From Zoogloea sp. (GTDB taxonomy: Bacteria > Pseudomonadota > Gammaproteobacteria > Burkholderiales > Rhodocyclaceae), in the NCBI RefSeq assembly GCF_028689785.1, contig NZ_JAQVCN010000014.1, forward strand, positions 1-64,000: 64,000 bases of DNA, in the 5' to 3' direction. The notes beneath the pieces were generated by a model. It made no database searches. It saw only the letters and a list, made by a program, of their open reading frames with translations, and was not told the DNA's origin. Positions 32,806 through 51,322 of this stretch are shown one piece after another; the first letter of the stretch is position 1, and every line of letters begins with the position of its first letter. The translations under genes were made by a program, and so were the position numbers.

Positions 32806-33672
32806 TCAGACGTAGCGCAAACGCCGGCTGCGCTCCAGGCGCTCGGCAAAGCGCGGAAAATCGAGACCGGTGCGTTGCCGCAGAGCTTTGGCCTGATTGC
32901 CTATCTCGCGCCAGCGGGGGGCGAACCCCGGCGCCCGGATGGCCAGCACGATGTCGTTGCCGTCCGGCAGCGAAATGCTCAGCACCCGATCGTCAAAGAC
33001 ACCGGCGATCATGTCCAGATGGGCCTCCCGGTCGGCCCGCTCGCCGGCCAGATTGGCCACCATCAGCCCGCGCCCGGCCAGGGCGTCATGCACCGTCTGA
33101 TAGAAGTGGCTGGAGCTCACCGAGCCCGACAGGCCATGGCGATCGAAGGCATCCATCATGATCACGTCGGGGCGCTCGTCCCAGCCGGCGCTCTCGATGA
33201 CCGCATCGGCCCCGTCGCCCTCCCGCACCTGCAGGCGGGCATCGTCGGGCGGCAACTCGAACTCGTCACGGAAGGCGATCACCCGGGGGTCGATCTCCAC
33301 CACCGTGATGCGCGCCGACCCTACGTGCCGGTAGCAGAACTTGGCCAGCGAACCGCCCCCGAGGCCCAGCATGAGCATGTGGCGCGGCTTGGGCAGGAAG
33401 AGCAGGAAGCTCATCATCGCCTGGGTGTAGTCCAGCTCCAGGGCGAAGGGGTCCTTCAGGCTCATGGTGCTCTGGATCAGGGACAGGGAGAAATGCAGGC
33501 TGCGGGTACTGCCGTCGTCGATCACGAAAGGCTTGTCGTAAGCCCCCGACACCACCTGGCCAAGCACCGCGCGGGTGTCGCAATCCGCCGGCTCAAGCAG
33601 GCGGATGGTGTCGCTGTCGGAAAAAAAAGGGCTGGGCAGTACCAGTACGGAGGGTGTTTCAGCGGGAGGCAC
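32806..33672 (-). CDS. Spermidine-synthase-like methyltransferase-fold protein
   Basis: 288 residues. The nucleotide-binding core is MLMLGLGGGSLAKFCYRHVG then VVEIDPRVIAFRDEF, and the acidic pair expected near the active site is present as MMDAFDRHGLSG. Overall it belongs to the spermidine synthase/polyamine aminopropyltransferase superfamily, but many such bacterial proteins are not true spermidine synthases. It lies 53 bp downstream of zur on the same strand, so it may be Zur-controlled. Confidence 0.75.
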   Translation of the reverse strand: MPPAETPSVLVLPSPFFSDSDTIRLLEPADCDTRAVLGQVVSGAYDKPFVIDDGSTRSLHFSLSLIQSTMSLKDPFALELDYTQAMMSFLLFLPKPRHMLMLGLGGGSLAKFCYRHVGSARITVVEIDPRVIAFRDEFELPPDDARLQVREGDGADAVIESAGWDERPDVIMMDAFDRHGLSGSVSSSHFYQTVHDALAGRGLMVANLAGERADREAHLDMIAGVFDDRVLSISLPDGNDIVLAIRAPGFAPRWREIGNQAKALRQRTGLDFPRFAERLERSRRLRYV

Positions 33673-33725
33673 GGCGGGGGAAGGAACGAAGGCGGGGCTG
33701 CATTGTAAGCCCGCGGCCGGAACAT

Positions 33726-34199
33726 TCAGGGTGCCGCCCGGCAGGCCGGGCAGACCGCACCGATCTCCACCTCGGGGCTCTCCAGCTGATGCCCCGCCGC
33801 CGCCAGACTGGCCGCCAGGGCCCCCATCACCGCATCATCCTGCAACTCCGTCACCCCGTTGCAGCGCGGGCACACCAGAAACAAGCCCGGCATCTGCGCC
33901 TGGTGGCAGTGCTGGCTGCAGGCCACGAAGAGGTTCATGCGCCCGACCTTGTGGGCCAGCCCCTGCTCGATCAGGAAATCCAACGCCCGATAGACGGTGG
34001 GTGGTGACGCTCCCGGCTTGTCGGCCTTGATCCGCTCCAGCAGATCGTAGGCCTTCAAGCCCCTTGGATGACGCAGCAACAGCGCCAGCACCAGGCGCCG
34101 GATAGGCGTCAAGCTGGCGCCACGGCTGCGGCAGCTCGCCTCGGCCTGATCGAGGAAGCCGGTTTCGACAGCGTCTGGGGAGGGGGCGGCAGTATTCAT
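33726..34199 (-). CDS. zur: Zinc uptake regulator, Fur family
   Basis: 157 residues from ATG 34199; GTG 34211 is an in-frame alternative and neither has a clear ribosome-binding site. The winged helix is visible ([39 protein letters not shown]), as is the His-rich regulatory region [13 protein letters not shown]. Structural Cys pairs are CPRC and CPAC. Its placement facing a Zur-box-like palindrome and a set of zinc-linked paralogues makes Zur, rather than Fur or PerR, the firm reading. It represses at high zinc. Confidence 0.92.
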
Positions 34200-34223
34200 G
34201 GGGGAGTTCACACGAGCAGCAGT

Positions 34224-34241
34224 GCAATGTTATAACATTGC
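34224..34241. promoter_or_regulatory. Zur box (predicted operator)
   Basis: GCAATGTTATAACATTGC is an exact 18-bp palindrome containing the ATGTTATAACAT core of proteobacterial Zur sites. It lies 24 bp before the zur start and 25 bp before the hisI start, so one operator can control both directions. It is the only such site I found in the island. Confidence 0.8.
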
Positions 34242-34266
34242 GATTCAAACAGATTGTCAGGCCACC

Positions 34267-34707
34267 ATGTTAACCCGACTTGAGTCTGCCCCTCCCGGCA
34301 GCCAGCTCCCCCTGGAGGCCGTGCTCGACACCCTGCCCTGGAACCAAGATGGCCTGATCACCGCGATCGCCCAGCAACACGATTCGGGCGAGGTGTTGAT
34401 GCTGGCCTGGATGAACCGGGCGGCCTTCGCGGAAACCCTGAGCACGGGCCAGGCCTGCTACTGGTCCCGCTCCCGGCACAGCCTGTGGCGCAAGGGGGAA
34501 ACCTCCGGCTGCCGGCAACGTGTCATCGATGTCCGCTTCGACTGCGACGGCGACGCCGTGCTGCTGCTGGTGGACCAGCTCGGTGGCGCCTGCCATACCG
34601 GGCGGCGCAGCTGCTTTTACAACGGCGTGCGCGGTGACCGGGTCGAAGTCCTCGACGCCCCACTCCCTGCCCTGCCCAAGCCGATTTCCGCCAAGGAGAC
34701 CCCATGA
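34267..34707 (+). CDS. hisI: Phosphoribosyl-AMP cyclohydrolase, zinc-responsive paralogue
   Basis: 146 residues. The HisI core is complete: [36 protein letters not shown], the metal-binding [14 protein letters not shown] and [11 protein letters not shown]. It opens the phosphoribosyl-AMP ring in histidine synthesis. No other his genes are nearby. HisI copies next to zur and COG0523 genes are a known zinc-limitation pattern, replacing or backing up the zinc-dependent housekeeping enzyme. ATG 34267 follows the Zur box. It overlaps the next gene by 4 bp. Confidence 0.9.
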
Positions 34708-35933
34708 CCCCGTCCTCCCGGGCCAGACTGCCCGTCACCGTCCTGTCCGGCTTCCTCGGTGCCGGCAAGACCACCCTGCTCAACCACGTCCTGCACAACC
34801 GGCAAGGCCTCAAGGTGGCGGTCATCGTCAATGACATGTCCGAGGTCAACATCGACGCCCGCCTGGTGGCCGAAGGCGGCGCCGAGCTGTCCCGCTCCGA
34901 GGAAAGACTGGTCGAGATGAGCAATGGCTGCATCTGCTGCACCCTGCGTGAAGACCTGCTGGTGGAGATCCGCCACCTGGCAGAGGAAGGCCGTTTCGAC
35001 TACCTGCTCATCGAATCCACTGGCATCTCGGAGCCGCTGCCGGTGGCGGAAACCTTCACCTTCCGGGACGAGAACGGCGTCAGCCTGTCCGACATCGCCC
35101 GTCTCGACACGCTGGTCACCGTCGTCGACGCCTTCAACTTCCTGCGCGACTACGGCTCCACCGACTACCTGGCCGACCGGGGCGAGAGCCTGGGCGAGGA
35201 AGACCAGCGCACCGTCGTGAACCTGCTGGTGGATCAGGTGGAATTCTGCGACGTCATCGTCCTCAACAAGACCGACCTGCTGGACGCTGCCGAGCTGGAG
35301 CGTCTGGACGGCCTGCTGAAGAACCTCAATCCCCGCGCCGACATCGTCCGCGCCCGCTTCGGCCAGGTGCCCCTGGAGCGCATCCTCGACACCGGGCGCT
35401 TTGACTTCGCCGCCGCGGCCGAAGCGCCGGGGTGGCTGGCCGAACTGCGCGGCGAGCACGTGCCGGAAACCGAGGAGTACGGCATCACCAGCTTCGTGTA
35501 CCGGGCCCGGCGCCCCTTCCATCCCCAGCGTTTCCATGAATGGATCAACCAGGAGTGGCCCGGCGTAGTCCGTTCCAAGGGCTACTTCTGGCTGGCCAGC
35601 CGCCCCACCATGGTGGGCAGTTGGTCCCAGGCCGGGGCGGTGGTCCGTCACGAGCTGGCCGGGCTGTGGTGGGCCGCCGTGCCGCGGGACCGCTGGCCCT
35701 CGGACGAGGAAGGCCTCGCCGCCATCCGTGCCCGCTGGGACGACGCCGTCGGCGACGCCCAGCAGGAGCTGGTCCTGATCGGCATCGACATGGACGAAGT
35801 TGCCCTCCGCGCCCGCCTGGACGCCTGCCTGCTGAACGACGCCGAGTACGCCAGCCGTCCCGCGGCATGGACGCAGCTGGCCGACCCCTTTCCCCGCTGG
35901 GCCTTTGCCGGTCAGGAGCAAGCCCATGAGTGA
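34704..35933 (+). CDS. COG0523 zinc-metallochaperone-type GTPase, first copy (ZigA-like)
   Basis: 409 residues. P-loop [15 protein letters not shown], the metal-binding CxCC motif [10 protein letters not shown], the switch ESTGISEP, and NKTDLL for guanine. The C-terminal CobW_C domain has the long ZigA-type ending ([25 protein letters not shown]). GTP-driven delivery of zinc to client enzymes is the accepted view for this family; the clients could be the paralogues encoded here. Confidence 0.9.
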
Positions 35934-37011
35934 GCGCGAGGAGCACGACCCCCGGGTTCCCATCACCCTGCTCACCGGCTTTCTCGGTGCAGGCAAAACG
36001 ACCCTGTTGAACCATCTCCTGCGCCAGCCGGAGATGGCCCGGGCTGCCGTGCTGATCAACGAGTTCGGCGCCGTCGGCATAGATCACCATCTGGTCGAGC
36101 GCGTCGACGCGAACATCGTGGTCCTGGACTCGGGCTGCCTGTGCTGTACCGTCAAGAGCGAGCTGACCCGCAGTCTGGCCGACCTGTTCCTGCGCGCCCT
36201 GCGCAAGGAAGTCCCGGTGTTCGACCGGGTCGTCATCGAAACCACCGGCCTCGCCGATCCCGTGCCGGTGATCCAGGCACTGATGAACGATTTCTTCGTG
36301 GCCGAGCGCTTCCGTTTCGATGGGGTCATCACCGCGGTGGACGCGCTCTTCGGCCGCGACCAGATCCAGCGCCATCGGGAAGCCCTGCGTCAGGTCGTCA
36401 TGGCCGACCGCCTGCTGATCACCAAGTGCGACCTGGCAGGCGGCGTCGAGCTTGCTTCGCTGGAACAGGATCTCGCCGCCCTCAACCCCGGGGCAAGCCG
36501 GATTCACGTCTCCGGCGGAGCGGTGGCGGCCTCTGCCATCATCGACTGTGGCCTCTACGACCCGGGCAGCAAAGTGCCCGACGTAGCCCGCTGGCTCGCG
36601 CCGCCCGCCGCCACCGGCATCCGCTACGCGCCCCGGACGGCAGCCAAAATACCGCCCTCCCACGATGGCAGTGTGCAGAGCTTCACCCTGGTCTTTGAGC
36701 AGCCCCTGCCCTGGGTTGGCTTCATCGACAGCCTGCGCCGCCTTCTCGACACCTGCGGCGACCGCGTTCTGCGGGTGAAGGGGCTGCTGCAGGTCACGGG
36801 CGATCCACGCCCGTGGATTGTCCAAGGCGTTCACGACATGGCCTACCCGCCCATCCCTCTGCCCCAGTGGCCCACCGAGCCTCCCTTTGATGACGGCCAC
36901 AGCCGGCTTGTCTTCATCGTCCAGAACCTGCCCCGGGCGCAGATCGAGGCGGGCTTCTCGGGATTGCTCGGTGCAGCCCCGCTCGTCGCCCCAGCCCCCC
37001 TTCCAGGCTGA
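35926..37011 (+). CDS. COG0523 zinc-metallochaperone-type GTPase, second copy
   Basis: 361 residues from ATG 35926, overlapping the first copy by 8 bp. P-loop [33 protein letters not shown] and ITKCDL. It resembles YjiA/CobW-type members more than its neighbour and has a shorter C-terminal domain, so the pair is not a recent tandem duplication. Two different family members in one island suggest separate clients. A 101-bp gap follows before thrS without a visible second Zur box. Confidence 0.9.
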
Positions 37012-37112
37012 TCCGCCGCAATCCACGCCAGCAGCATCGGCGGGCACCGACAGAGCCTCGCCGTCACCCCGCCCTGCCCTTCACCCTCCTTCTCCTACCA
37101 GGCTCACGCACC

Positions 37113-39065
37113 ATGCCCTGCATCACCCTGCCTGACGGCAGCCAGCGCACGTTTGTGCACCCGCCAACCGTGGCCGACGTCGCCGCCGCCATCGGCCCCG
37201 ACCTCGCCAGGGCCGCCCTCGCCGGCTGTGTCGATGCGCATCCGGTCGATCTCAGCTTTCGCATCGACAGGGATGCCCGGCTCAGTCTGATCACTCAGGA
37301 CAGCCCTGAAGGCCTGGCGATCCTGCGTCACTCCTGCGCCCACCTGCTGGCCATGGCCGTGAAACAGCTCTTCCCTGGCGCCCAGGTCACCATCGGCCCG
37401 GTCATCGAAGAAGGCTTCTTCTACGACTTCGCCTTCGAGCGCCCCTTCACCCCCGATGATCTGACACGGATCGAAGCCCGCATGCACGAACTGGCCGCCG
37501 CCGACCTGCCCGTCACCCGGCGCGAGCTTCCCCGTGACGAGGCCATTGCCCACTTCGAACAGCAGGGCGAGCACTACAAGGCAGAGCTGATCCACGCCAT
37601 CCCGGAAGGCGAGCCCCTGTCCCTCTATCGCCAGGGTGACTTCGAGGACCTGTGCCGGGGCCCCCATGTGCCGTCCACCGGCCGCCTCAAGGCCTTCAAG
37701 CTGACCAAGGTGGCGGGCGCCTACTGGCGCGGCGACGCCACGAAGGCCGTTCTGCAGCGCATCTACGGCACCTGCTGGCCCGACGCCCGGGCGCTCGCAG
37801 CTCACCTGACCCGCCTGGAGGAAGCCGGCAAGCGTGACCACCGCAAGCTCGGCGCCCAGCTCGATCTCTTTCATTTCGACGATAGCGCGCCCGGATCGGT
37901 GTTCTGGCACGCCCGGGGCTGGACCCTGTTCCAGCAGCTGATCGCCTACATGCGGGCACGCCAGGACGAGGCCGGCTACATCGAGGTCAATACCCCGGAC
38001 GTGATGGACCGTGGGCTGTGGGAAACCTCCGGCCACTGGTTCAACTATCGCGACGCGATGTTCACCACCACCACCGAGGACGAGCGGGTTTTTGCCCTCA
38101 AGCCGATGAACTGCCCCGGCGCCGTCTCGCTGTTTGCCCAAGGCATCAAGAGCTACCGCGACCTGCCCCTGCGCATGGCCGAGTTCGGCAAGGTGCACCG
38201 CTACGAGCCCTCCGGCGCCCTGCACGGCCTGCTGCGGGTGCGTCACTTCACCCAGGACGACGCCCACATCTTCTGCACCCCCGCCCAGATGCAGGACGAG
38301 TGTGCCCGCAGCATCGCCCTGGTGTTCGCCATCTACCGGGATTTCGGCTTCGACGAGGTGGCCGTCAAGCTGTCCACCCGCCCCGCCCGGCGCATCGGCG
38401 ACGACGCCACCTGGGACGCCCTGGAGAACGCCCTGTCGGGCGCCCTTGACCGGATGGGCATCGCCTACCGGGTCAATCCCGGCGAGGGCGCCTTCTACGG
38501 CCCCAAGCTGGAGTTCGTGCTGCGTGACGCCATCGGCCGCGACTGGCAGTGCGGCACCCTGCAGGTGGACCTGAACCTGCCCGAGCGCTTCGATATCCAC
38601 TACGTGGATGAAGATGACCAGCGCCAGCGCCCGGTCATGCTGCACCGGGCACTGTTCGGCTCCCTGGAACGCTTCACCGGCATCCTGATCGAGCACTACA
38701 GCGGCCTCTTCCCGGTCTGGCTTGCTCCCTGCCAGGTGAAGGTCCTCACCATCAGCAGCGCCCAGGATGACTACGCACGCGAGCTCGTCCGCACCCTGAA
38801 GCAGGCCGGTCTGCGAGCCGATGCCGATCTGCGCAATGAGAAGATCGGCTTCAAGATCCGCGAACACACCCTGCAGAAGATCCCCTACCTGGCCATCGTC
38901 GGCGAACAGGAAAGACAGCAGGGTCAGGTCGCCCTGCGCGCCCACGACGGCACCAAGCTGGGCAGCCTCTCACGTGCAGCGTTCATGGAACAGCTCGTCC
39001 GCGCAGCCCGGTCGCCCCTGCACACCCCCCTCTCCCCCTGCGACCTCGCCCCACCCTCGCCATGA
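37113..39065 (+). CDS. thrS: Threonyl-tRNA synthetase, zinc-regulon paralogue
   Basis: 650 residues, full length. TGS domain (1-60), editing domain with [15 protein letters not shown] and the LCRGPH motif, class II catalytic core (motif 2 [18 protein letters not shown]), and a C-terminal anticodon domain. The catalytic zinc ligands appear kept: Cys in MNCPG, His in TQDDAHIF and His in MLHRALFG. It lies within the Zur operon rather than beside infC, so it is a second copy as seen in other Zur regulons. It would keep threonine charging going when the main enzyme lacks zinc. Overlaps pyrC by 4 bp. Confidence 0.92.
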
Positions 39066-40393
39066 CCCGACGCATCCTCATCCGCAACGCCCGGCTGGTG
39101 AACGAAGGCGGCATCGTCGATGGCGACCTGCTCGTCGCCGACGGCCGCATCGACCGGATCGCCGGCAGCATCGCCCACGCCGCGGAGATCGAGATCGACG
39201 CGGCGGGCGCCTGGCTGCTCCCCGGCATGATCGACGACCAGGTGCACTTCCGCGAACCCGGCCTGACCCATAAGGGCTGCATCGCCAGTGAATCAGCAGC
39301 GGCCGTGGCCGGGGGCATCACCAGCTTCATGGACATGCCCAACACCCGCCCGCCCACGCTCGACATGCTCGCCATCGACGCCAAGCGAGCCCTGGCGGCA
39401 GCTGGCAGCCACGCCAACTACGCCTTTCACCTGGGGGTGTCCACCCACAACCTGGACGCCGTGGCTGCCGCCGACCCGACCCGCATTGCCGGCATCAAGG
39501 TTTTCATGGGGGCCTCCACCGGTGACATGCTGGTGGACGACCCCACCGTGCTGGAGCGCCTGTTTGCCTGTGCTCCCACCCTCCTGCTGGCCCATTGCGA
39601 AGACACCCCCAGCATCCTGGCCAACGAAGCTGCCTGGCGGGCGCGTTGCGGCAATGACATCCCCTTCGAAGCCCACCCCCTGATCCGCAGCGCCGAAGCC
39701 TGCTACCGCTCCTCGTCCCTGGCGGTGGGCCTGGCCCGTCGGCACGGTACACGGCTCCACGTGCTGCACCTGTCCACCGCCCGGGAGCTGGCCCTGTTCG
39801 ACGACGGCCCCCTGGCCGGCAAACAAATCACCGCCGAAGCCTGCCTCCATCACCTGCTGTTCGACGACAACGCTTACGCCGCCCTGGGCAGCCTGCTCAA
39901 GTGCAACCCGGCGGTGAAGACCCGGCAGGACCGGGACGCCCTGCGCGCCGCCGTGGCCAGCGGACGCATCGACGTGATCGGCACCGACCACGCCCCCCAT
40001 ACCCGGGCCGAGAAGGCCGCCCCCTACGCCACCGCCCCATCCGGCCTGCCCCTGGTACAGCACGCCCTACCAGCGCTGATGGAGCTGGTGCATGACCGGG
40101 TGCTGGATCGCCCGACCCTGGTCCGGCGCTGCAGCCACGCCGTCGCCGATCTGTTCCAGATCCGTGATCGCGGCTACCTGCGGGAGGGTTACTGGGCCGA
40201 TCTGGTGCTGCTCGCCGATCAGGATCACGCCGTGGATGCCGCCCCCATCCTCAGCCGCTGCGGCTGGACCCCGTTCGCCGGCCGGCACTTCCGCTCCCGG
40301 GTTCTCACCACCCTGGTATCCGGACAGCTCGCCTGGCACGACGGCCGCCTCAACCCCGCCTGCCGTGGCGAAGCCCTTCAATTCGACCGCTGA
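39062..40393 (+). CDS. pyrC: Dihydroorotase, zinc-regulon paralogue
   Basis: 443 residues. Amidohydrolase landmarks: the carbamylated Lys region [25 protein letters not shown] and GTDHAPH. The first metal motif reads [10 protein letters not shown], so the first His of the usual HxH pair is Gln. The product makes dihydroorotate for pyrimidine synthesis. Paralogues of PyrC in Zur/COG0523 clusters are established. Here the altered ligand may lower zinc demand, although activity needs proof. Confidence 0.9.
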
Positions 40394-40401
40394 AACCCGC
40401 C

Positions 40402-40799: not shown

Positions 40800-40830
40800 C
40801 ACCCCAACCCTGTTCAAGACCACGCTGCCC

Positions 40831-42921
40831 ATGCCCGCAACCTTCCTCCGAACACCTCCCTCGCCCACCGTCCTCCTGATTGCCGCGGCCCTTTCCGGCG
40901 CGACCGACCTGGCCGTCGCCGACGACACGCCCGTCCTGCCCACCGTCCGCGTCTCCCCAGAGACCGCCCTCCCTCGGGCAGGTGCGCGGCTCAAACTGAG
41001 GAATGACAGCACAGCCCTCCCCTCCGCGGTCTCCGTCGTCACCGCCGATGAGCTGGAGAGCATCAATGTGGGGCGAGACATCGCTGCCATCTACCGACGG
41101 GTGCCCGGCGTCGTCGCCAACAACATCGACCAGGGCGATACGGGCGTCGGCTTCCGGATGCGGGGCTTTACCACCCAGGGCACCCACGGGGCCGACACCG
41201 CCGTTTATGTGGACGGCGTGCCGCAGAACATCCCGTCCAGCCAGAGCGGAGCTGGCCACGGCCCGGTCTTTCTCGAATGGCTCACCCCCGAGATGATCGA
41301 ACGCATTGAGGTCATCAAAGGGCCGATTTCGTCCCTTCACGGTGATCAGAACCGTGCCGGCGCCGTCGACATCACGACGGCGAAAGGCGGCGACCAGCCC
41401 TCCAGCGTGGGCATCACGCTAGAAAGCTACAACGGCAAGCGGGCCAATCTGGTCCTGTCGAACACGCTCGAGAGCGTGGATTCCCTGTTCATTGCCGACC
41501 TGTACCGCGCCGACGGCTACCGCCATGCCTCCCGAACCGAGCGGGACAGCTTCTTCTGGAAGCTCTCCACCCGCCACCAGGGCACAGACTACGCGCTGCG
41601 GCTGAGTCACTACCGCTCGGATTTCGAAGCCGCAGGCTACCTCCTGTACTCCGACCTCAAGGCCGGGCTGGACCCGCGCTCGACCCAATTCGACAACCCC
41701 GGATACGGTTCGGCCGAGCGCACATCCCTGGTCTTCAATGCCGCTCCGGCCCAAGGCCCGGACGGCATCCATGGCAGCGGGTACATCGAACAGTTCGAGC
41801 GGACCCGAGCCATCGCCGCCAGCAACACCGCCCATAACGTCACCACCGATGACCGGGTGATCATGGGAGGGCGCCTGTTCAATAGCCTGACCCTGGCGCA
41901 GAACACCCTGCTGACGTTCGGAGGTGAGCTTCGCCGCGACAACGGCGATGCCTTCCGACAGCGCTACAGCAGCGGACAGGCCACCGCCAGCTACCTGAAC
42001 AACTACGACATGGACCTGCTGACCTACGGGCTGTTTGCCCAGGGTCAGTATCGTCCCTGGCCTACGTTCAAGCTGCTGGGCGGCCTGCGCCACGATTGGT
42101 TCGACTACGACATCCGGAACCGCAAGCTCCCCGGCGCATCGACCTCGTACCAGGGCAGCGTCACAACACCCAAGCTCGGCGTGGTATGGCATGCAACAGA
42201 GGCCCTGGAACTCTTCGCCAATGCGGCGGAAGGCTTCCGCTCCCCCTATGCCGAACAGATCTCGCCCGCAGGCACCCTCGGTCCCCTCGGGAGTCCGGGC
42301 GGCAAGCTGAACACGGACATCGGCGCCTCCAAGGTCCGCTCCTACGACCTGGGCTTCACCGCCAGCCCACGCCCTGGCTGGACGCTGTCCGGCACGGCCT
42401 ACCAGATCACCAACCAGGACGAGATCGTCATGATCTCCGCCGACACCTATGCTTCCGTCGGTGAAACCACCCGCCGGGGCTTCGAGGTGGAAACCCGAAT
42501 GACGCTCACGTCCGCGCTGTCGGCCTACGCCAACTACGCCCGCATCACCGAAGCGCGGATCCGCAATCCCCTGCCAAACACGGGCGCCCTGCTGTCGGTT
42601 CCCGGACATCAGGTGAAGGCCGGCGTGGAGCACCGCAACACGCTTCTGGGCGGGCGTCTGACCGTGAACGCCGATGTCTATGCCTTCTCGGATGTGCCCT
42701 TCTACCAGGGCACCCCACAGACCCACGTGGCAGACATGCCCGCTTACGTCCGCTATGACCTCAGGGCCCGATTCGAGAGCGGCCCCTATCAGGTGGCCAC
42801 CTATCTGGTGTTCCAGCCCAATGCCTATGCCAGCGACGCCGCCTACGGGGCCAGCGCCGGCCTGATGGTCTCCCCCATGCCTCGCACCCTGATCGGCACG
42901 TCACTCCGCTATGCATTCTGA
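40831..42921 (+). CDS. TonB-dependent outer-membrane receptor, probably for zinc or a zinc complex
   Basis: 696 residues from ATG 40831. Signal peptide ends near LAVA-DD. The plug is typical: PSAVSVVTADELESINVGRD, GVGFRMRGFTT, VYVDGVPQN and IERIEVIKGPISSLHGDQNR. A 22-strand barrel follows, ending LIGTSLRYAF with terminal Phe. The plug style is that of siderophore receptors, but its place in the Zur operon points to zinc or a metallophore. It is followed after 47 bp by an ABC transporter that may be functionally linked. Confidence 0.88.
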   Translation: MPATFLRTPPSPTVLLIAAALSGATDLAVADDTPVLPTVRVSPETALPRAGARLKLRNDSTALPSAVSVVTADELESINVGRDIAAIYRRVPGVVANNIDQGDTGVGFRMRGFTTQGTHGADTAVYVDGVPQNIPSSQSGAGHGPVFLEWLTPEMIERIEVIKGPISSLHGDQNRAGAVDITTAKGGDQPSSVGITLESYNGKRANLVLSNTLESVDSLFIADLYRADGYRHASRTERDSFFWKLSTRHQGTDYALRLSHYRSDFEAAGYLLYSDLKAGLDPRSTQFDNPGYGSAERTSLVFNAAPAQGPDGIHGSGYIEQFERTRAIAASNTAHNVTTDDRVIMGGRLFNSLTLAQNTLLTFGGELRRDNGDAFRQRYSSGQATASYLNNYDMDLLTYGLFAQGQYRPWPTFKLLGGLRHDWFDYDIRNRKLPGASTSYQGSVTTPKLGVVWHATEALELFANAAEGFRSPYAEQISPAGTLGPLGSPGGKLNTDIGASKVRSYDLGFTASPRPGWTLSGTAYQITNQDEIVMISADTYASVGETTRRGFEVETRMTLTSALSAYANYARITEARIRNPLPNTGALLSVPGHQVKAGVEHRNTLLGGRLTVNADVYAFSDVPFYQGTPQTHVADMPAYVRYDLRARFESGPYQVATYLVFQPNAYASDAAYGASAGLMVSPMPRTLIGTSLRYAF

Positions 42922-42968
42922 GGCCCTGAGATCGCGCATCACCGCGCCCACGGAACCGAGGCTGCGCC

Positions 42969-43697
42969 ATGGCTGATCCGGTACTGAACGTCGAACAACT
43001 CGTCGTCGAGTTCCAGGGAAGCCGGGCGGTCGATGCCATCGATCTGAAGGTATCTGCCGGTACCGTCTATGCCCTGCTGGGTGGCAACGGGGCAGGCAAG
43101 ACAACCACGCTCAACTGCCTTCTCGGATTCGTACGCCCCACGAGCGGCCGGGTCAGCGTCGGCGGCATCGCCCTCTCGGAGACCCCCTCTGCCGCGCGCC
43201 GGCTGCTGGCCTACCTGCCTGAGAACGTCGCACTCTATCCGTACATGACAGGCGAAGAGAACCTGCGCTATTTCTGCGAAATTGCCGACCTGAAGATGGA
43301 CCGCGCCCGCCTCCGTCAGCATCTGACAGAGGCGGGGCTTGCCTCTGCAGCCCACTCGGTCAAGCTCGGGAAGTACTCCAAAGGCATGCGCCAGAAGGTG
43401 GGGCTGGCCATTGCCCATGCACGCCGTGCCCAGGCCATGCTGCTCGACGAACCCACCTCCGGACTGGACCCGGGTGCCGCCAATGAGCTCAGCCGACGCC
43501 TGCGCCAGTCGGCAAACAGCGGCATGGCCATCCTGATGGCCACCCACGACCTGTTCAACGCCAGGCAGGTAGCCGACAGGATCGGGATCATGCAGCGGGG
43601 GCGCCTGGTTGCCGAATTTGACGCATCGTCAGTCACCCACGAAGAACTGGAGCACACCTACCTTACCCACGCCGGCACAGCCCGGGAGCGACCATGA
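42969..43697 (+). CDS. ABC transporter ATPase, ABC-2 type
   Basis: 242 residues. Walker A GGNGAGKTTTL, variant signature YSKGMRQKVGLA, Walker B AMLLDEPTSGLD, switch His in MATHDLF. The SKGM signature is typical of NatA/NosF-like ATPases of ABC-2 systems rather than importers using binding proteins. It overlaps the first permease by 4 bp. Confidence 0.9.
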   Translation: MADPVLNVEQLVVEFQGSRAVDAIDLKVSAGTVYALLGGNGAGKTTTLNCLLGFVRPTSGRVSVGGIALSETPSAARRLLAYLPENVALYPYMTGEENLRYFCEIADLKMDRARLRQHLTEAGLASAAHSVKLGKYSKGMRQKVGLAIAHARRAQAMLLDEPTSGLDPGAANELSRRLRQSANSGMAILMATHDLFNARQVADRIGIMQRGRLVAEFDASSVTHEELEHTYLTHAGTARERP

Positions 43698-45106
43698 CGA
43701 TGCTGCTCAGCAAGGAAGTCTGGGCGATTGTCCGCGATGGCCGTCTGGTGACGCTGGCAGTTGCACTCCTCGTCATCCTGGCCGGCGCCCTGCACGCATC
43801 GAGCCTGCGCGAGCACGAGCAGACCCGCGAGCGGACGGAGATCGAACGCATCACGCGTCAGCAATGGGACAACCAGGGGCATCAGCACCCCCATCGGGGG
43901 GCCCATTTCGGCATCTATGTGTTCCAGCCGAAGGCCCCGCTATCGGTGATCGATCCGGGCATCCTGGACTATGTGGGACAGGCGCTGTGGCTGGAACCCC
44001 ATCGCCGTAACTTCATGCGCTTCCGTCCCGCCGTGGACGCGCCCCCCCACACCCGGCTGGGTCTCCCCACACCCGCCTTCCTGCTCACATCCATACTGCC
44101 TCTGCTGATCATTGGCTTTGCATTCAACGCCGTCTCGGAAGAGCGGGAGAGCGGCACCCTGCGCATGCTTCACGGGGCCGGACTTGCGCCGGTCCGGCTG
44201 ATTGTGGCCAAACTTGCGGCACAACTGGGCGTCCTCGCCCTCTGGCTGATCTTTCTGCTGGCCGTCACCTGGGTCGTCTTTGTGCAGGCGCCGCCAGACG
44301 GCGATGCGCTGCTCCGTACCGCAGCCCTCGGCATCGGCTACTTGCTGTACTACCTGACCTTCTGTGCGCTCGCACTGGCGGCCTCGACACTTTTCCGCCA
44401 CAGCCGGACGGCCCTGCTGACCCTGATCGTGATATGGGCCCTGTTCGCACTCGTCGTCCCCCGCCTGGGCAGTGCTGTCGCCAGCGCAGGCACGCCGCTC
44501 CCAACCGCCGAGCAATTCTGGACACAGATCCGGCACGACTACGAACACGGCCTGCCGGGAGACCTCAGCCTGGCCGACCAGGTGGCACAGTTCGAAGCCG
44601 AGCAGTTGCGCCAGAACGGAGTCGGCCGCGTGGAGGACCTGCCCTTCGGCATCAATGCAGTGCGCCGCCTGTTCCGCGACGCTTACAGTGACAAGGTACA
44701 CACCCATCACTTCGAGCGGCTCGGCCGGGCCCATGATGCCCAGACCCAGGCCTTGCGGTGGACAGCCTTGTTCAGCCCCAGCCTGGCCATGCAAGCCTTC
44801 TCCGCAACCCTGGCCGGCACGGACATGGCCCATCAGCGGCATTTCGAACACGCCGCCGAGGCCTATCGGCGCTACATCAACACCACGATAGACCGCTGGG
44901 ATGCCGACAACACCCATGGCGTCAGCTCATTTGATGCGCGCTACGCCGACAACCAGCTCTGGCGGGCCATCAAACCTTTCGAGTACCACCCGCCCGACGC
45001 AGCCTTCGCCTGGCGCGCAGCCTGGCCGGATCTCCTGACGCTGCTGGGCTGGAGCACGCTGGCGACGGCTCTTCTGATCATTCTGGGCCGGAGGCTCACA
45101 CCATGA
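43694..45106 (+). CDS. ABC-2 type permease, DUF3526 family, first copy
   Basis: 470 residues. One N-terminal helix, a long periplasmic region rich in His (GHQHPHRGAHFG), a helix bundle from about residue 135 (FLLTSILPLLIIGFAFNAVS, then ERESGTLRMLHG, the ABC-2 permease hallmark), a second soluble stretch and a last helix near the C terminus (LLTLLGWSTLATALLIILG). DUF3526 permeases occur in pairs, often next to TonB receptors; transport direction is not proven. Confidence 0.83.
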   Translation: MTMLLSKEVWAIVRDGRLVTLAVALLVILAGALHASSLREHEQTRERTEIERITRQQWDNQGHQHPHRGAHFGIYVFQPKAPLSVIDPGILDYVGQALWLEPHRRNFMRFRPAVDAPPHTRLGLPTPAFLLTSILPLLIIGFAFNAVSEERESGTLRMLHGAGLAPVRLIVAKLAAQLGVLALWLIFLLAVTWVVFVQAPPDGDALLRTAALGIGYLLYYLTFCALALAASTLFRHSRTALLTLIVIWALFALVVPRLGSAVASAGTPLPTAEQFWTQIRHDYEHGLPGDLSLADQVAQFEAEQLRQNGVGRVEDLPFGINAVRRLFRDAYSDKVHTHHFERLGRAHDAQTQALRWTALFSPSLAMQAFSATLAGTDMAHQRHFEHAAEAYRRYINTTIDRWDADNTHGVSSFDARYADNQLWRAIKPFEYHPPDAAFAWRAAWPDLLTLLGWSTLATALLIILGRRLTP

Positions 45107-46488
45107 TCCGACCACTCATGCAGGCGGAATGGCTCCGCTTCCGGAGCCATCCGGGCAATCGCTGGATCATCGCGACCTTTCTTCTCGTCTTTCTGCTCAA
45201 CGCGGCATGGTCGGGCTGGACTGCCCGCGAACATCGCCACCAGCAGGTGGCCGAGGCACAAGCATGGCGAACGATGCTCGAACACGAGCGAAGCGGCTTG
45301 CTCGGCACGCCCAAGGCCGGGGAAAGCCTCGAACAGAAAGCGCGCACTGCCTTCGAATTTGCCCGGCACGGCTCGCCCCCCGCACAACTCCCCACCCTTG
45401 GAGGGCTGACGCTCGGCACCACTGCGCTCAAGCTGCTCAGCCCGGTGAGCCACGTCACTGTGACCAATCGTCAGGCCGATGATCGGAAAAGTGAGACATT
45501 GACCAATCCCCGGCTTGAAGCGATCGGCGAGATCGACTTCGCCACGCTGACAGCGCTGCTGCTCCCCATCCTCTGCATCTGCCTCTGCTACGGTCTGCTG
45601 CAGGAAGACAGGGCCAGCGGCATCTGGCGCCTGACCACCATGACCCATCCACAGGCGTGGCAGGTACTGGGTGCCAGCCTCCTCATTCGCTGGTGCGTGG
45701 TGCTCCTCTGCCTGGCTCTGCCGTCGGCCCTGGCCTTCGGCCTTGATCCAGGGGCATCGCTCCTCGCCTATCTGAGCTGGATCGCCGCCGGGGCCGGTTT
45801 TGCGGCCATCTGGATCATTCTGGGCGGACTGGCATGCCTCCTCCCGGTCAGCGCAGGCGCATCGGCATCGGCACTCCTGGCAGTGTGGATCGTCAGCAGC
45901 TTTGTGCTGCCTGCCACCCTCAGCGTTCAAGGCGACGCAAAGGCCCCCTCGCGGATGGCCAGCATTGCCGCCCTGCGCGTGATCCAGCTCGACGTGGACG
46001 AGCAGGCGCCCGCCCTCCTGGCACAGTGGTACGCGCAGAACGCAGATACCACCGTGCCCCGCCAGTCTCACGTTTGGCCCGTCAGCTTCATGCCGCGCTA
46101 CACCGAGGAGAGTCTGCGCGCCCGCGCAATATTCCGTCGCTTCGACGCCTACCGGGCGACACGCGACTCGCGACTCGCAGCGTGGGCCTTGGTATCGCCG
46201 CCGATCGGCCTGCTGGATATCGCCGACCGTCTGGCCGGCATCGACGCCGCCCGCTACCACCGCTACGCCCTGGCAGTGGATGACTACGAAGACCGATGGC
46301 GCGACTACCTCACCCCAAGAATCATGTTCTACCGCGGCCTCACCCCGGCTGACCTGGATGCCCTGCCCACCTTTGCCTTTTCCAGCGCCCCCACCTCCGT
46401 GGCCTGGCCCCTGGTCCGTCTGTGGGTGTCGGCCCTGGTGCTGCTCCTCACCTTCCTGCTGTTCCGGCATCACGCGAATACACCATGA
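45103..46488 (+). CDS. ABC-2 type permease, DUF3526 family, second copy
   Basis: 461 residues with the same layout as the preceding gene: N-terminal helix (WIIATFLLVFLLNAAWSGW), soluble region, helix bundle with LLQEDRASGIWRLTTMT, another soluble domain, C-terminal helix. Similar length and shared placing of domains suggest an old duplication giving a heterodimeric channel. Overlaps the first permease by 4 bp and ends 37 bp before the ZIP gene. Confidence 0.83.
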   Translation: MIRPLMQAEWLRFRSHPGNRWIIATFLLVFLLNAAWSGWTAREHRHQQVAEAQAWRTMLEHERSGLLGTPKAGESLEQKARTAFEFARHGSPPAQLPTLGGLTLGTTALKLLSPVSHVTVTNRQADDRKSETLTNPRLEAIGEIDFATLTALLLPILCICLCYGLLQEDRASGIWRLTTMTHPQAWQVLGASLLIRWCVVLLCLALPSALAFGLDPGASLLAYLSWIAAGAGFAAIWIILGGLACLLPVSAGASASALLAVWIVSSFVLPATLSVQGDAKAPSRMASIAALRVIQLDVDEQAPALLAQWYAQNADTTVPRQSHVWPVSFMPRYTEESLRARAIFRRFDAYRATRDSRLAAWALVSPPIGLLDIADRLAGIDAARYHRYALAVDDYEDRWRDYLTPRIMFYRGLTPADLDALPTFAFSSAPTSVAWPLVRLWVSALVLLLTFLLFRHHANTP

Positions 46489-46525
46489 CATCCCCCCCTT
46501 ACCCTAGCTCGGAGCCCAGCCGCTG

Positions 46526-47266
46526 ATGCATCCCCTCACCCACACCCTGGCGGCCTGTGCCGTCGGGGGCCTTCTCAGCATGGGGGCTGCCGCGCTGCTG
46601 ACCTTCGGACTCCCCCGCCGCTGGCTGACGCGCATGGTCAGTTTCTCCACCGGTGTGCTGCTCGCCACCGCCTTCCTGGATCTGCTGCCGGAGGCCGCCG
46701 AGGCCGGTGTGGAGACCCACACCCTCTTTGCCCTGCTCCTCGCTGGCCTGCTTGGCTTCTTCTTTCTTGAAAAGGCCGCGCTATGGCGCCACAACCACGA
46801 GGCCCCCGCACACAGCCATGATCTGGCCCGAACGGTGCCGATCATCCTGCTGGGCGACACCGTGCACAATTTCACTGACGGCCTGATGCTGGCAGCTGCC
46901 TTCCTGGTAGATCCCCACCTGGGCTGGGCCACGACACTCGCCATCGCCGCCCACGAGATCCCCCAGGAGGCGGGCGACTTCATCCTGCTGCTCGCCGCCG
47001 GCTGGCGCCGGAGCCAGGCTTTGCTGTGGAACGGTCTGTCCAGCCTTGCCTCCATTCTGGGCGGCCTCATCGGGTACTTCTGGCTGAGCGACGCCGGGCG
47101 CTGGCTCCCCCATGTTCTCGTCATCGCCGCAGCCAGCTTCATCTATCTCGCCGTCTCCGACCTGATGCCCTGGTTACGCCAGGAAAAGGGCGACCTTGCC
47201 TGGCACGGAGGCTTCATGGCGGCCGGCATCGCCCTGCTTTCGGCCGGCATGGCCTTTCTCCACTGA
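46526..47266 (+). CDS. ZIP-family zinc/divalent-metal transporter
   Basis: 246 residues, about eight helices. The binuclear metal centre of ZIP proteins is visible as HNFTDGLMLA in TM4 and HEIPQEAGDF in TM5, and a His loop (HNHEAPAHSHD) lies between TM3 and TM4. It would let zinc enter the cytoplasm. Inside the Zur operon it replaces the ZnuABC importer normally expected there; no znuABC was found in the window. Confidence 0.92.
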   Translation: MHPLTHTLAACAVGGLLSMGAAALLTFGLPRRWLTRMVSFSTGVLLATAFLDLLPEAAEAGVETHTLFALLLAGLLGFFFLEKAALWRHNHEAPAHSHDLARTVPIILLGDTVHNFTDGLMLAAAFLVDPHLGWATTLAIAAHEIPQEAGDFILLLAAGWRRSQALLWNGLSSLASILGGLIGYFWLSDAGRWLPHVLVIAAASFIYLAVSDLMPWLRQEKGDLAWHGGFMAAGIALLSAGMAFLH

Positions 47267-47283
47267 TCGCCACGGAGCCCACC

Positions 47284-47937
47284 ATGAACGCACGCCACGA
47301 TCTCCCCGCTCACGCCATTCATACCCTCGTCACCCACTCTCCGGCTGCGCTGGTCGGCATCTTCGAGCCGGACGTCCAGCTCGCCATCTGGCAACGCCCG
47401 GCAGATCCGCTCATCGCCGGCTACCTGGAGGCATCGAGACATGGCCTCGGACGCGGGCTGCGAACCACTCTTGAGGCCGGGCGATGCCCTGAGCTGGGGG
47501 AACTCCCCGACCACCCCGGCCGCGCGGCCCTGGCCAGGGACATCGGCCAGCTCGCCGAACTGCTGGGCGATCTGCTTGACTGCCCCCATATTGGCCTGCG
47601 CCTGGAGGTGATCGACAAAGCCATGTGCCCGCGCCTGCATGTGGACCGGGTCGGCATCCGCCTGCTGTGCACCTACCGGGGGCCGGGCACGGAATGGCTG
47701 GACGACACCGGCACCGATCGCAGCAAGCTGGGCAGTGGCGCGGGCGGCCTGCCCGACGACCAGTCTGGCCTGCTCGGCGCCGGGGCACAGATCCAGCGCA
47801 TCCCCGGCTTCGCCGTGGCCCTGCTGAAGGGCAGCTTGTGGCAGGGCAATGGCGGCCGCGGAATCATCCATCGCTCTCCGGCGGTTCCGGCAGACGCCTT
47901 TCCCCGCGTGGTGCTGGCCGCGGACGGGGTATGGTGA
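47284..47937 (+). CDS. DUF1826 protein
   Basis: 217 residues, soluble. DUF1826 landmarks include VGIFEPDVQLAIWQRPADP, LRLEVIDKAMCPRLHVDRVG, IRLLCTYRGPGTEWL and VALLKGSLWQG. A conserved Cys-x3-His (CPRLH) with nearby Asp resembles the metal site of 2-oxoglutarate-type dioxygenase folds, but this is only a resemblance. DUF1826 genes recur beside Zur-controlled COG0523 genes. It overlaps the following ATPase gene. Confidence 0.85.
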   Translation: MNARHDLPAHAIHTLVTHSPAALVGIFEPDVQLAIWQRPADPLIAGYLEASRHGLGRGLRTTLEAGRCPELGELPDHPGRAALARDIGQLAELLGDLLDCPHIGLRLEVIDKAMCPRLHVDRVGIRLLCTYRGPGTEWLDDTGTDRSKLGSGAGGLPDDQSGLLGAGAQIQRIPGFAVALLKGSLWQGNGGRGIIHRSPAVPADAFPRVVLAADGVW

Positions 47938-48605
47938 GCCCCATGGCCCCGGCCATCCACATCCGCGACCTGCGCTTCGCCTGGCCAGGCCAGACGGCAC
48001 CGTGTCTCACCCTGCCCGCTCTGGACGTGGATCAGGGTGAGCAAGTGTTCATCCAGGGGGAAAGCGGCGCCGGCAAGAGCACCCTGCTCAACCTCATCGG
48101 CGGCGTGCTGCTGCCCCGGGAAGGGCGCGTCCAGATCCTCGACCAAGCCCTGGACGCCCTGTCGGCCCCCGCCCGGGACCGTTTCCGGGTCGATCACATC
48201 GGCTTCATCTTCCAGCAGTTCAACCTGCTGCCCTATCTGTCTGCCCTCGACAATGTTCTCCTGCCCTGCCGCTTCTCCGCTACCCGGGCCCAGCGGGCCG
48301 GCCCCCGGCCCGTGGAGGCGGCACGTCGGCTCCTGGATGCCCTGGAGGTGGATGGCAGCGACGCAGCCCGGCCGGCGAACACCCTGTCCGTCGGGCAGCA
48401 ACAGCGGGTGGCCGCAGCCCGGGCGCTGATCGGACGGCCGGCACTGATCCTCGCCGACGAGCCCACCTCGGCCCTCGACCCGCGCCGCCAGGACGCCTTC
48501 ATCACGCTGCTGGGCAAGGAGGTGGCCGCCCATGGCAGCAGCCTTGTCCTGGTCAGCCACGACCCGCGCCTGGCATCCCGTTTCGATCGGTGCATCGCCC
48601 TATGA
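47931..48605 (+). CDS. ABC transporter ATPase, MacB/LolD-type (zrg-like)
   Basis: 224 residues from ATG 47931; GTG 47934 (4-bp overlap) and ATG 47943 are alternatives. Walker A GESGAGKSTLLNLIGG, Q-loop FIFQQFNLLPYLSALDNV, signature LSVGQQQRVAAARAL, Walker B LILADEPTSALD. The type pairs with FtsX-like permeases, and the partner gene overlaps by 4 bp. Confidence 0.9.
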   Translation: MVSPMAPAIHIRDLRFAWPGQTAPCLTLPALDVDQGEQVFIQGESGAGKSTLLNLIGGVLLPREGRVQILDQALDALSAPARDRFRVDHIGFIFQQFNLLPYLSALDNVLLPCRFSATRAQRAGPRPVEAARRLLDALEVDGSDAARPANTLSVGQQQRVAAARALIGRPALILADEPTSALDPRRQDAFITLLGKEVAAHGSSLVLVSHDPRLASRFDRCIAL

Positions 48606-49891
48606 AGACCCTGCTATCCCTGGCCTGGGCCAGCGCCTGGAACCGGCGCCTGAGCCTCGCCCTCGCCGCCCTGTCCATCGCCCTGGCGGTCACCCTGCTG
48701 CTCTCCGTAACCCGGGCCCGTGAAGCCGCCCAGACACAGTTTGCCCAGTCGGCAGCCGGAGTGGACCTGGTGGTAGGGCCTCGTGGCAGCCCGGTGCAGC
48801 TGCTCCTGCACGCTGTCTTCCACCTGGGAGACGCCAGCCATACCCTGGCGTGGAAGAGCTATCAGACCCTGGCTGCAGACCCGCTGATTGCCTGGAGCCT
48901 CCCCCTCTCCCTGGGCGACTCCCACCGGGGCTTCCCGGTGCTGGGCAGCACACCCGAGTTCTTCCGCCACCTCGGAGACGGACAGCAGCAAGGCCTTGCT
49001 TTTGCCGATGGCCAGCCCTTCGCCGGTCTCTTCGAAGTTGTCATCGGCGCCGAGGTGGCAGCCCGCCTTGGCTACCAGACAGGCCGGCAGATCACCCTGC
49101 AGCATGGAAGCAGCCACCTGGACGCCCATCATCACGACGACGATGCCGCCCACCCCGAGCACGCCGACAAGCCCTTCCGGATCGTCGGCGTCCTGGCCCC
49201 CACCGGCACCCCCGTGGACCGGACCCTCATCGTGAGCCTGCCGGCACTGGAAGCGATCCACCTGGACTGGCAGGGCGGGATGCCCACGCCGGGCCTGAGC
49301 ATTCCGGCCGATGCCGCAAACAAGTTCGACCTCACCCCCAAGCACCTCAACGCCGTACTGATCGGCCTTCATCAACGCACCGATGTGTTTCGCGTGCAGC
49401 GCCAGATCAATGCCTTTGGTGGCGAGCCTTTGATGGCCATCCTGCCGGGCCTGGCCATGGACGAGCTGTGGCAGCTCATGGGCAGTGTCGAACGCACCCT
49501 GCACGGACTGGCCTGGCTGGTGATGGCTGCAGGGCTGGCCGGGCTGGTGGCGGTGATCGTCGCCGGCCTGGGCGAGCGGCGGCGCGAACTCGCCATCCTG
49601 CGCTCGGTGGGCGCGGGCCGGCGCCACATCGTCGGGTTGCTGGTGCTGGAGGGCGCGCTGGTGACGGTCGCGGGAACTGCCCTGGGCGTGATGGTGGTGG
49701 AAACCGCCGGCCACCTGCTGGCCCCCTGGCTGAGGGCTCGCCTCGGGCTGGACCTTTCCGGTGCAACCCTGTCAATGGAGGCACTCCGAATCCTGGCCGT
49801 GGTGCTGGCCACCGGCCTCGCGGCGAGCCTGCTCCCGGCCTGGCGTGCCAGCCGGATGGCCCTGGCCGATGGCCTGCTGCCCCGGCTGTAA
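48602..49891 (+). CDS. FtsX/MacB-type permease with His-rich periplasmic loop
   Basis: 429 residues. One N-terminal helix, a large periplasmic domain, and three C-terminal helices (LVMAAGLAGLVAVIVAGLGE; GALVTVAGTALGVMVVETAG; ILAVVLATGLAASLLPAWRA), the FtsX order. Residues 172-190 of the periplasmic part hold a His/Asp cluster (HLDAHHHDDDAAHPEHADK), a likely zinc-binding loop. With the ATPase before it and the DUF3299 gene after it, this matches the Zur-regulated zrg transporter set described in Vibrio, without the DUF2796 protein. Confidence 0.86.
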   Translation: MKTLLSLAWASAWNRRLSLALAALSIALAVTLLLSVTRAREAAQTQFAQSAAGVDLVVGPRGSPVQLLLHAVFHLGDASHTLAWKSYQTLAADPLIAWSLPLSLGDSHRGFPVLGSTPEFFRHLGDGQQQGLAFADGQPFAGLFEVVIGAEVAARLGYQTGRQITLQHGSSHLDAHHHDDDAAHPEHADKPFRIVGVLAPTGTPVDRTLIVSLPALEAIHLDWQGGMPTPGLSIPADAANKFDLTPKHLNAVLIGLHQRTDVFRVQRQINAFGGEPLMAILPGLAMDELWQLMGSVERTLHGLAWLVMAAGLAGLVAVIVAGLGERRRELAILRSVGAGRRHIVGLLVLEGALVTVAGTALGVMVVETAGHLLAPWLRARLGLDLSGATLSMEALRILAVVLATGLAASLLPAWRASRMALADGLLPRL

Positions 49892-50505
49892 TGGTGCTCA
49901 TCATGCGCCACATCCGCCTTGCTGCCGGCCTGCTTGCTATTTCACTTGCCAGCGCCCATGCCCAGACACCCCGTGGAGACGTGGGGTTCCGGATCGGAGA
50001 ACGTCTGCCCGGCAGCGGCGCCCAGCGCGAAGCCAACTACCGGGACATCACCTGGGACGATCTGCTGCCCAAAGACTGGAACCCGATGGCAGCCTTCAAG
50101 GGGCTCGACTTCTCCCGCCTCAAGGACAACGACCCGCGGGCCATCGAGGCGCTGGAGAGGATCAAGCGGGCCTGGGACGAGGCCCCCGTCAGCACTACGC
50201 TGCAGGGGCAGCGGGTCCGGTTGCCGGGCTTCGTGATCCCCCTGGAACGCCGGGGCAAGCTGACCCGCGAATTCCTGCTGGTCCCCTACTTCGGCGCCTG
50301 CATCCACGTTCCGCCACCGCCCGCCAACCAGATGATCCACGTGATCGCCCGCAGACCGGTGGCCGGGCTCAACACCATGGACCCGGTATGGGTCAGTGGC
50401 ACCCTGAGCATCCACCGCGCCGAAACGGGCATGGGCATCGCCGGCTACCGGCTTGCCGGTGACACGACCCTGCCCTATACCGGCACCGGCACCGGCAAAC
50501 CTTGA
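49891..50505 (+). CDS. Exported DUF3299 protein
   Basis: 204 residues from ATG 49891 (shared base with the preceding stop, TAATG) or 200 from ATG 49903. Signal peptide ends ASAHA. The DUF3299 core is LPGFVIPLERRGKLTREFLL followed by YFGACIHVPPPPANQMIHV, whose Cys and His look like metal ligands. Last gene of the zinc island; convergent with the succinate dehydrogenase operon 21 bp away. Confidence 0.88.
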   Translation: MVLIMRHIRLAAGLLAISLASAHAQTPRGDVGFRIGERLPGSGAQREANYRDITWDDLLPKDWNPMAAFKGLDFSRLKDNDPRAIEALERIKRAWDEAPVSTTLQGQRVRLPGFVIPLERRGKLTREFLLVPYFGACIHVPPPPANQMIHVIARRPVAGLNTMDPVWVSGTLSIHRAETGMGIAGYRLAGDTTLPYTGTGTGKP

Positions 50506-50526
50506 TCCTGCCCGACGCGCTGCGGC

Positions 50527-51267: not shown

Positions 51268-51322
51268 GATCCATACCCCTTGCGGGTGTCGTCATCATGG
51301 GAGGGGGCGGAGGTCGGGGCGA

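Follow-up and report, generated by a model that had tools for sequence, protein, structure and literature searches.

A probable zinc-starvation operon of 15 genes behind one Zur-type operator in Zoogloea, and the turnover of its modules among relatives

Can the uptake, handling and enzyme functions that serve a bacterium in zinc starvation be gathered in a single transcription unit? The question is raised by a locus in a draft genome (128 contigs) of Zoogloea sp., assembly GCF_028689785.1. We analyzed 64,000 nucleotides of its contig NZ_JAQVCN010000014.1, hereafter the window. Fifteen plus-strand genes at 34267-50505 (16,239 bp) lie downstream of an operator that resembles a Zur box, and zur, a gene for a Fur-family zinc regulator, diverges from the other side. 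Judged by its sequence, this array is very probably one Zur-repressed zinc-starvation operon with a divergent zur.

The operator is distinctive and conserved. It is a perfect 18-bp palindrome, GCAATGTTATAACATTGC, and has no other match in the window at up to three mismatches (0 in 100 shuffles). Its 14-bp core occurs once at up to two mismatches in the 5.08-Mb assembly, while the reversed-pattern control gave 0. A scan of relatives' genomes at up to one mismatch found the core in 12 of 22 genus-mates, in 0 of 13 genomes from other genera of the family and in 4 of 24 genomes from other families of the order. In the fetched stretches, zur directly adjoins the operator in the window's own genome and in 10 of the 12 genus-mates with a match. 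Thirteen sites of the genus were compared, drawn from 12 genomes that include the window's own; some of these genomes are close kin, which makes the sites non-independent. Information content is 1.98 bits per column in the 18-bp region versus 0.41 in the flanks. This set omits a match in G003 as a likely chance match (a 3.9-kb contig where no window genes were found) and does not count a second site in G009, which was included in the weight matrix. The operator is nearly invariant at the genus sites, and its flanks are divergent.

The divergent gene encodes a protein that, by comparison, is a Zur-type regulator, closest to Zur within the Fur family and with the structural CxxC pairs present. 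Its top matches among solved structures are 7dh7, listed as a Fur-family regulator, and 4mtd, a zinc uptake regulation protein; these rank far above Fur and PerR entries. Both CxxC pairs align with those of the solved relatives. The NCBIfam Zur model is the best match, yet the score is below its cut-off (106.5 of 167 bits). A preliminary description of this DNA had recognized the palindrome, which stands, and had left the adjoining zur unnamed.

The same description had proposed that about 15 genes run almost without gaps from one Zur-box-like palindrome. We count 15 genes with one gap above 50 bp: neighbors overlap or are separated by no more than 47 bp, the one exception being the 101 bp from cobW2 to thrS, and further spacings are 47 bp before the first ABC ATPase gene and 37 bp before zip. 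The starts of cobW2, the second ABC ATPase gene (47931) and the DUF3299 gene were chosen from a start-codon list. Domain matches agree with the families that had been named (HisI, ThrS, PyrC, QueD-like, two COG0523 GTPases, TonB receptor, DUF3526 ABC transporter, ZIP, DUF1826 and a zrg-like transporter). The proposed span of 32806-50505 is right for the array and too long at its left end, where 32806-33672 is a minus-strand gene resembling spermidine synthase. A simple scan of 33600-51300 found terminators not in excess (5, against 6.2 expected from shuffles). A weight matrix of the genus sites, the window's included, found no second operator-like site in the island: the best site scores 38.3 bits and the next -1.9. 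In gene order and content the array is operon-like, with a predicted Zur-type regulator beside a conserved operator and with zinc-linked gene families. Single-operon Zur control of the array is likely.

Relatives carry the same operon with different contents. The left flank, with the spermidine-synthase-like gene, is common to the window, G005, G010 and G022, and the right flank, with an sdhB-like gene, to the window, G005 and G010. Thus, the operons of these three relatives occupy the same place as that of the window. G005 lacks the equivalent of window 36049-38700, and the first part of its cobW2 runs straight into the last part of thrS. In G010, the first part of cobW2 is followed by an 86-bp queD fragment and next by zip. 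Both junctions resemble the scars of deletions. In G017, a zip-like gene follows directly after the same operator. By its layout, the hisI-thrS pair of G009 is a split version of the operon: it has its own operator variant (L132, position 12489), which lies within a longer palindrome before hisI-thrS and separate from the zur site. Several of the relatives' genomes are incomplete, and contamination is stated as 6% for G009 and G014. Comparison shows a modular operon: zur and the operator stay, and the blocks behind them are deleted or inserted. Together, the relatives amount to a natural series of deletions and insertions in this operon.

One such block is a cassette of tonB, an ABC ATPase gene and two DUF3526 permease genes, which comparison places as an insertion between queD and zip in the window's lineage. 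The queD tail departs after window 40751, where the cassette begins; in G005 and G010, zip follows directly after the same queD tail, and this place holds no cassette. In G015 and G019, a cassette composed in the same way separates the operator from zip, and the enzyme genes are missing there. Between G015 and the window, cassette identities are 45% for tonB, 47% for the ATPase, and 35% and 27% for the permeases, while the genes that follow are at 74% (zip), 71% (DUF1826), 62% (second ATPase), 71% (FtsX) and 73% (DUF3299). A tree of the ATPase and first permease (15 rows) places the window with G010 and with Variovorax and Comamonas plasmids (support 100/100), and G015 and G019 with two genomes of the same class (98/98). 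A grouping of the window's genome (G000) with G015 and G019 is rejected (p-AU, the approximately unbiased test, 0.001), likewise with G010 added; the tested groups were named after the identities had been seen, and the p-values are generous. The DUF3526 cassette of G010 lies on another contig, and its first permease is 44% identical to that of the window.

The family also occurs on plasmids. Twelve DUF3526-bearing plasmid records gave a match, and in the six opened, a TonB receptor is annotated beside DUF3526 in three, none in Methylocystis, while two are unannotated; the unannotated Variovorax plasmid shows a TonB receptor by tblastn. That DUF3526 is always tied to zinc was considered and rejected, as DUF1826 lies in the fetched stretch of only five of nine full DUF3526 loci (present in G000, G015, G019, G047 and G202; not in G010, G080, G105 and G187). 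The stretches differ in length, and a short G014 fragment with a stop and a G010 fragment on contig C44 were left out of this count. Compared by sequence with solved structures, the first permease gave chance-level matches only. Its predicted structure was not used (mean predicted local distance difference test score 43.6, predicted template-modeling score 0.27, from a two-row alignment of the window's own permeases). The word DUF3526 was found in no paper of the literature searched.

The zinc enzymes of the array mostly keep their metal sites. Island ThrS retains Cys334, His385 and His511 of E. coli ThrS (1qf6; hand-counted on the alignment, with a motif check), which we take to be the zinc ligands, and, by eye on the same alignment, the His/Cys pattern of the editing domain. 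A second ThrS of the same genome, on contig C1, is 58% identical and shares the ligand motifs. In island HisI, all three Cys of the family are present. PyrC2 differs: its motif reads DDQVH, against DVHVH in dihydroorotases such as 3mpg, with Gln in place of the first His of HxH, and 2gwn has this motif as well. The queD-like gene has a frameshift near 40533, and the frame from its ATG continues into the TonB receptor; relative G005 has an open copy and G010 a remnant. A real mutation and a sequencing error cannot be told apart here. A second QueD is present on contig C49.

The genome's other copies were also sought. With PyrC2 as query (E. coli-type PyrC was not searched), the sole other match in the genome has lost both His of HxH. 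This dihydroorotase homologue (L172 3873-5147, contig C116; motif IDLAARLREPG) resembles the inactive PyrC' type of Haas et al. 2009 (PMC2770081). A second HisI is present in all six genus-mates that carry the island type, and none was found in the window's own assembly. The assembly also lacks hisA and hisF (one match below cut-off), despite a stated completeness of 98.84%. An assembly gap is therefore likely, and the his operon of this genome is probably unassembled. We rejected the idea that island HisI is the genome's sole copy, on the missing hisA and hisF and on the second copies of the genus-mates.

Cluster ThrS carries a signature of its own. Ala stands three residues after the zinc-binding Cys (MNCPGA) in all 11 zinc-cluster copies from which the motif was obtained: the window, L130, L121, L138 and L132 within the genus, and L012, L013, L028, L031, L032 and L068. 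His stands there (MNCPGH) in the genome's own second copy (L155), L040, L167, 1qf6 and 6vu9. L040 and L167 were classed as canonical by lower identity (53%) alone, and the thrS of L040 sits about 1 kb from a pyrC2-like gene, so the contrast comes mainly from the genome's own ThrS pair and the solved structures. The motif check covered the window and 16 loci, of which L017, L018 and L020 gave no motif. All of the best 80 of at least 560 confirmed loci with PyrC2 relatives were scanned for synteny, and in five of these 80 (L012, L013, L031, L032 and L068; Pseudomonas and Halopseudomonas) hisI and pyrC occur together with a full-length thrS that is 68-80% identical to that of the window.

Seven Pseudomonas loci (L017, L018, L020, L021, L022, L026 and L034) have, after pyrC, a ThrS-like gene without the catalytic core; they were found among all 14 synteny-scanned loci with a thrS match. 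These genes lie at about 11350-12250 of their loci and join the first ~220-233 residues to the anticodon-binding part (from ~517-551), with no zinc site. The frame is open in all seven (272-341 amino acids), and change is concentrated at third codon positions (0.48, against 0.24 at first and 0.18 at second positions). Pfam gave TGS and anticodon-binding domains in each of the five scanned. A pattern scan found a Zur-box-like site in six of the seven stretches and none in L034. Literature searches gave no dedicated paper, judged by title or abstract start; truncated synthetase paralogues are mentioned in general terms in PMC4787780.

We tentatively propose, at somewhat less than even chance, a broader picture. 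The zur-operator head may serve as a constant docking site, with zinc-stress modules lost or captured behind it and at least two distant TonB/DUF3526 cassettes taken up before zip in one genus. Cluster ThrS may be a distinct, zinc-tuned form marked by its Ala, which in some Pseudomonas has become a core-less, zinc-free tRNA-handling or regulatory protein.

How might the operon work? With zinc present, Zur would sit on the operator between the two start codons and repress both directions. As zinc falls, Zur would leave, and about 15 genes would be transcribed as one message. By their families, the products would act at three levels: uptake, zinc handling and extra enzyme copies. The TonB receptor with the DUF3526 ABC-2 transporter, the ABC/FtsX/DUF3299 complex and the ZIP protein may serve uptake at the outer membrane and envelope, and the two COG0523 GTPases, one of them ZigA, may handle zinc. 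Extra copies of HisI, ThrS and PyrC would be supplied under starvation. Because HisI and ThrS keep their zinc ligands, they are more likely to be fresh or zinc-retentive copies fed by the GTPases than zinc-free substitutes; PyrC may run with an altered metal.

Several observations weigh against this single operon. The operator core was not found at up to one mismatch in 10 of the 22 genus-mates. The simple scan of 33600-51300 found no sigma-70-like promoters (1.4 expected), the operator included, and since it is silent even there, little can be read from the lack of hits within the array. A promoter could lie in the 101 bp that precede thrS. The queD gene is broken in this assembly, the benefit of HisI and ThrS under starvation is not obvious, because both keep their zinc ligands, and the DUF3526 permeases are export-like in class, with no binding protein encoded beside them. 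Contig C24 (L171 5443-10400) has in a row a dksA-like gene (by eye), a COG0523 GTPase gene, a small unknown gene, one for a beta-barrel-like protein and znuA, and the weight matrix found no operator-like site in this cluster (best 0.4 bits versus a shuffle mean of 0.5). Either Zur has other kinds of site or this cluster lies outside Zur; the operon is therefore not claimed as the whole zinc regulon. The view that the array is unusually complete needs the same qualification: many functions do share one array, while C24 holds another COG0523/znuA cluster, and in close relatives the same operator is followed by a shorter set of genes. Two or more transcription units, with Zur controlling hisI-cobW1-cobW2 alone and thrS-pyrC-queD, the TonB/DUF3526 cassette and zip onward on promoters of their own, would suit the three gaps above, and an inserted cassette could have brought a promoter. 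We nevertheless find this rather unlikely. The island has no second operator-like site, the gap before thrS is only about 30 bp in G011 (by match ends), and the promoter scan is uninformative. The cassette (G015, G019) or a zip-like gene (G017) also comes directly after the same operator and would presumably be read from it there.

The single Zur-repressed operon leaves room for other readings of its parts. The preliminary description had spoken of enzyme sparing, in which the paralogues work zinc-free and replace the zinc enzymes. PyrC, which lacks the first His of HxH, fits this, as does the Zur-linked PyrC without conserved zinc residues described by Haas et al. 2009 (PMC2770081). HisI and ThrS do not, since they keep all their ligands, and the same report finds zinc residues retained in the HisI, ThrRS and QueD paralogues of Zur regulons and suggests raised copy number. 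With QueD broken, zinc-free substitution is indicated for PyrC only, and sparing proper is improbable for the set. For island ThrS we prefer, by analogy, the model of Zur-controlled Anabaena ThrS2, proposed to be active once the main enzyme loses zinc (PMC4787780). A more open matter is whether the DUF3526 ABC-2 transporter, rather than importing zinc, works as an exporter, for instance of a small zinc-binding molecule that the TonB receptor would take back. Its DrrA-like ATPase and ABC-2 permeases, the adjacent TonB receptor and the lack of a periplasmic binding protein among the 15 genes make export a possibility to be taken seriously, if still a doubtful one. The 15 genes include no biosynthesis genes for such a molecule, and for the counterpart in Caulobacter the published description is that of a putative uptake system (PMC4176598). 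The cassette before zip might also be ancestral and replaced in one lineage, rather than captured twice, as the shared order of cassette, zip and DUF1826 in G000, G015 and G019 would allow. This seems unlikely. G005 and G010, whose zur and cobW1 are very similar to those of G000, both have zip attached to this same tail of queD, so the ancestor of the trio is most simply without a cassette, and the cassette proteins of G000 and G015 have diverged further than those from zip to DUF3299.

Table 1. Positions of the operator, zur, the array and the adjoining left-flank gene in the window
Feature	Position	Strand	Evidence or remark
Spermidine-synthase-like gene	32806-33672	-	Outside the array
zur, Fur-family zinc regulator	33726-34199	-	Divergent from the array; PF01475
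Zur-box-like operator	34224-34241		24 bp from zur start, 25 bp from hisI start
hisI, phosphoribosyl-AMP cyclohydrolase	34267-34707	+	PF01502; zinc-binding Cys retained
cobW1, COG0523 GTPase, ZigA type	34704-35933	+	NF038288 (ZigA), 695.5 bits, cut-off 600
cobW2, second COG0523 GTPase	35926-37011	+	PF02492, PF07683
thrS2, threonyl-tRNA synthetase	37113-39065	+	Zinc ligands retained; Ala at E. coli His337
pyrC2, dihydroorotase	39062-40393	+	NF006688, 674.6 bits, cut-off 535; DDQVH replaces DxHxH; 2gwn match
queD-like gene	40402-40799	+	PF01242 in two frames; frameshift
Inserted cassette (tonB, ABC ATPase, two DUF3526 permeases)	40752-46521		Absent at this place in G005, G010
TonB-dependent receptor, znuK-like in context	40831-42921	+	PF00593, PF07715
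ABC ATPase, znuG-like in context	42969-43697	+	PF00005; best NCBIfam match DrrA family, below cut-off
ABC-2 permease with DUF3526, znuH-like in context	43694-45106	+	PF12040, PF12679
ABC-2 permease with DUF3526, znuI-like in context	45103-46488	+	PF12040
zip, ZIP-family metal transporter	46526-47266	+	PF02535
DUF1826 protein	47284-47937	+	PF08856; start from start-codon list
ABC ATPase, zrgC-like	47931-48605	+	PF00005; Vibrio zrg gene descriptions
FtsX/MacB-type permease, zrgB-like	48602-49891	+	PF02687, PF12704
DUF3299 protein, zrgE-like	49891-50505	+	PF11736

Two further loci of the window lie outside the array. The minus strand carries a cation efflux family gene at 54924-55898, 4.4 kb past the end of the island. 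At 24520-29734, a MerR regulator with a B12-binding domain lies beside cyclopropane synthase, DUF1365 and amine-oxidase-like genes, presumably a stress locus of the B12/light type.

Zinc-starvation functions that are spread over several operons in the other bacteria of the papers cited here are in this locus gathered behind one operator. This makes two questions testable: what role a zinc-retaining second ThrS or HisI has, and whether the DUF3526 ABC cassette moves zinc.

The array is closest in content to the COG0523 clusters of Haas et al. 2009 (PMC2770081), which likewise combine zur, COG0523 and paralogues of HisI, ThrRS, PyrC and QueD; a figure legend there also has DUF1826 and an outer membrane protein. 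As in those clusters, a COG0523 GTPase lies beside paralogues of zinc enzymes, with the second ThrS on C1 and the second HisI in six genus-mates. Here, they form one array with one operator and are joined by ZIP, znuGHI-like and zrg-like transporters, and the 15 genes lack FolE2, gamma carbonic anhydrase, CysRS and AmiA. The cobW1 operon of Cupriavidus metallidurans (PMC11340326) similarly unites COG0523 with zinc-enzyme paralogues (CysS, QueD, AllB) under Zur. It differs in its double Zur site, zupT, cobW2 and cobW3 are further products of that regulon, and C. metallidurans has FolE_IB2 and a carbonic anhydrase, neither of which is in the array. The COG0523 cluster of Burkholderia cenocepacia (PMC10563805) is another close known system.

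The transporters and ThrS also have described counterparts. The Zur-repressed znuK and znuGHI of Caulobacter crescentus place a TonB receptor beside an ABC-2 ATPase and two ABC-2 permeases (PMC4176598). Those genes diverge from one shared Zur site (the listed sites are reverse complements), while the cassette here runs in line. Its TonB receptor, ABC-2 ATPase and two DUF3526 permeases are likened to them by make-up, not by sequence comparison with the Caulobacter genes. Among 14 control genomes, PF12040 occurs in Caulobacter alone, and we infer that znuH and znuI are its DUF3526 genes. Vibrio zrgABCDE, raised in zinc starvation, has the same ABC ATPase (zrgC), permease (zrgB) and DUF3299 (zrgE) components (PMC9817125). 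The island lacks genes for zrgA (DUF2796) and zrgD (DUF2607); zrgA is not beside the transporter, where four other genes fill 47284-50505, and the rest of the genome was not searched for it. The Anabaena thrS2 operon (PMC4787780) also puts a second ThrS under Zur, although its T2 enzyme is impaired in editing; island ThrS, by eye, keeps the His/Cys pattern of the editing domain. The initial view that the single parts are known Zur targets is borne out: the building blocks are known or close to known (PMC11340326, PMC10563805, PMC4176598, PMC9817125 and review tables in PMC6103462). To these known blocks, the Zoogloea locus adds their gathering in one array and the turnover of its modules.

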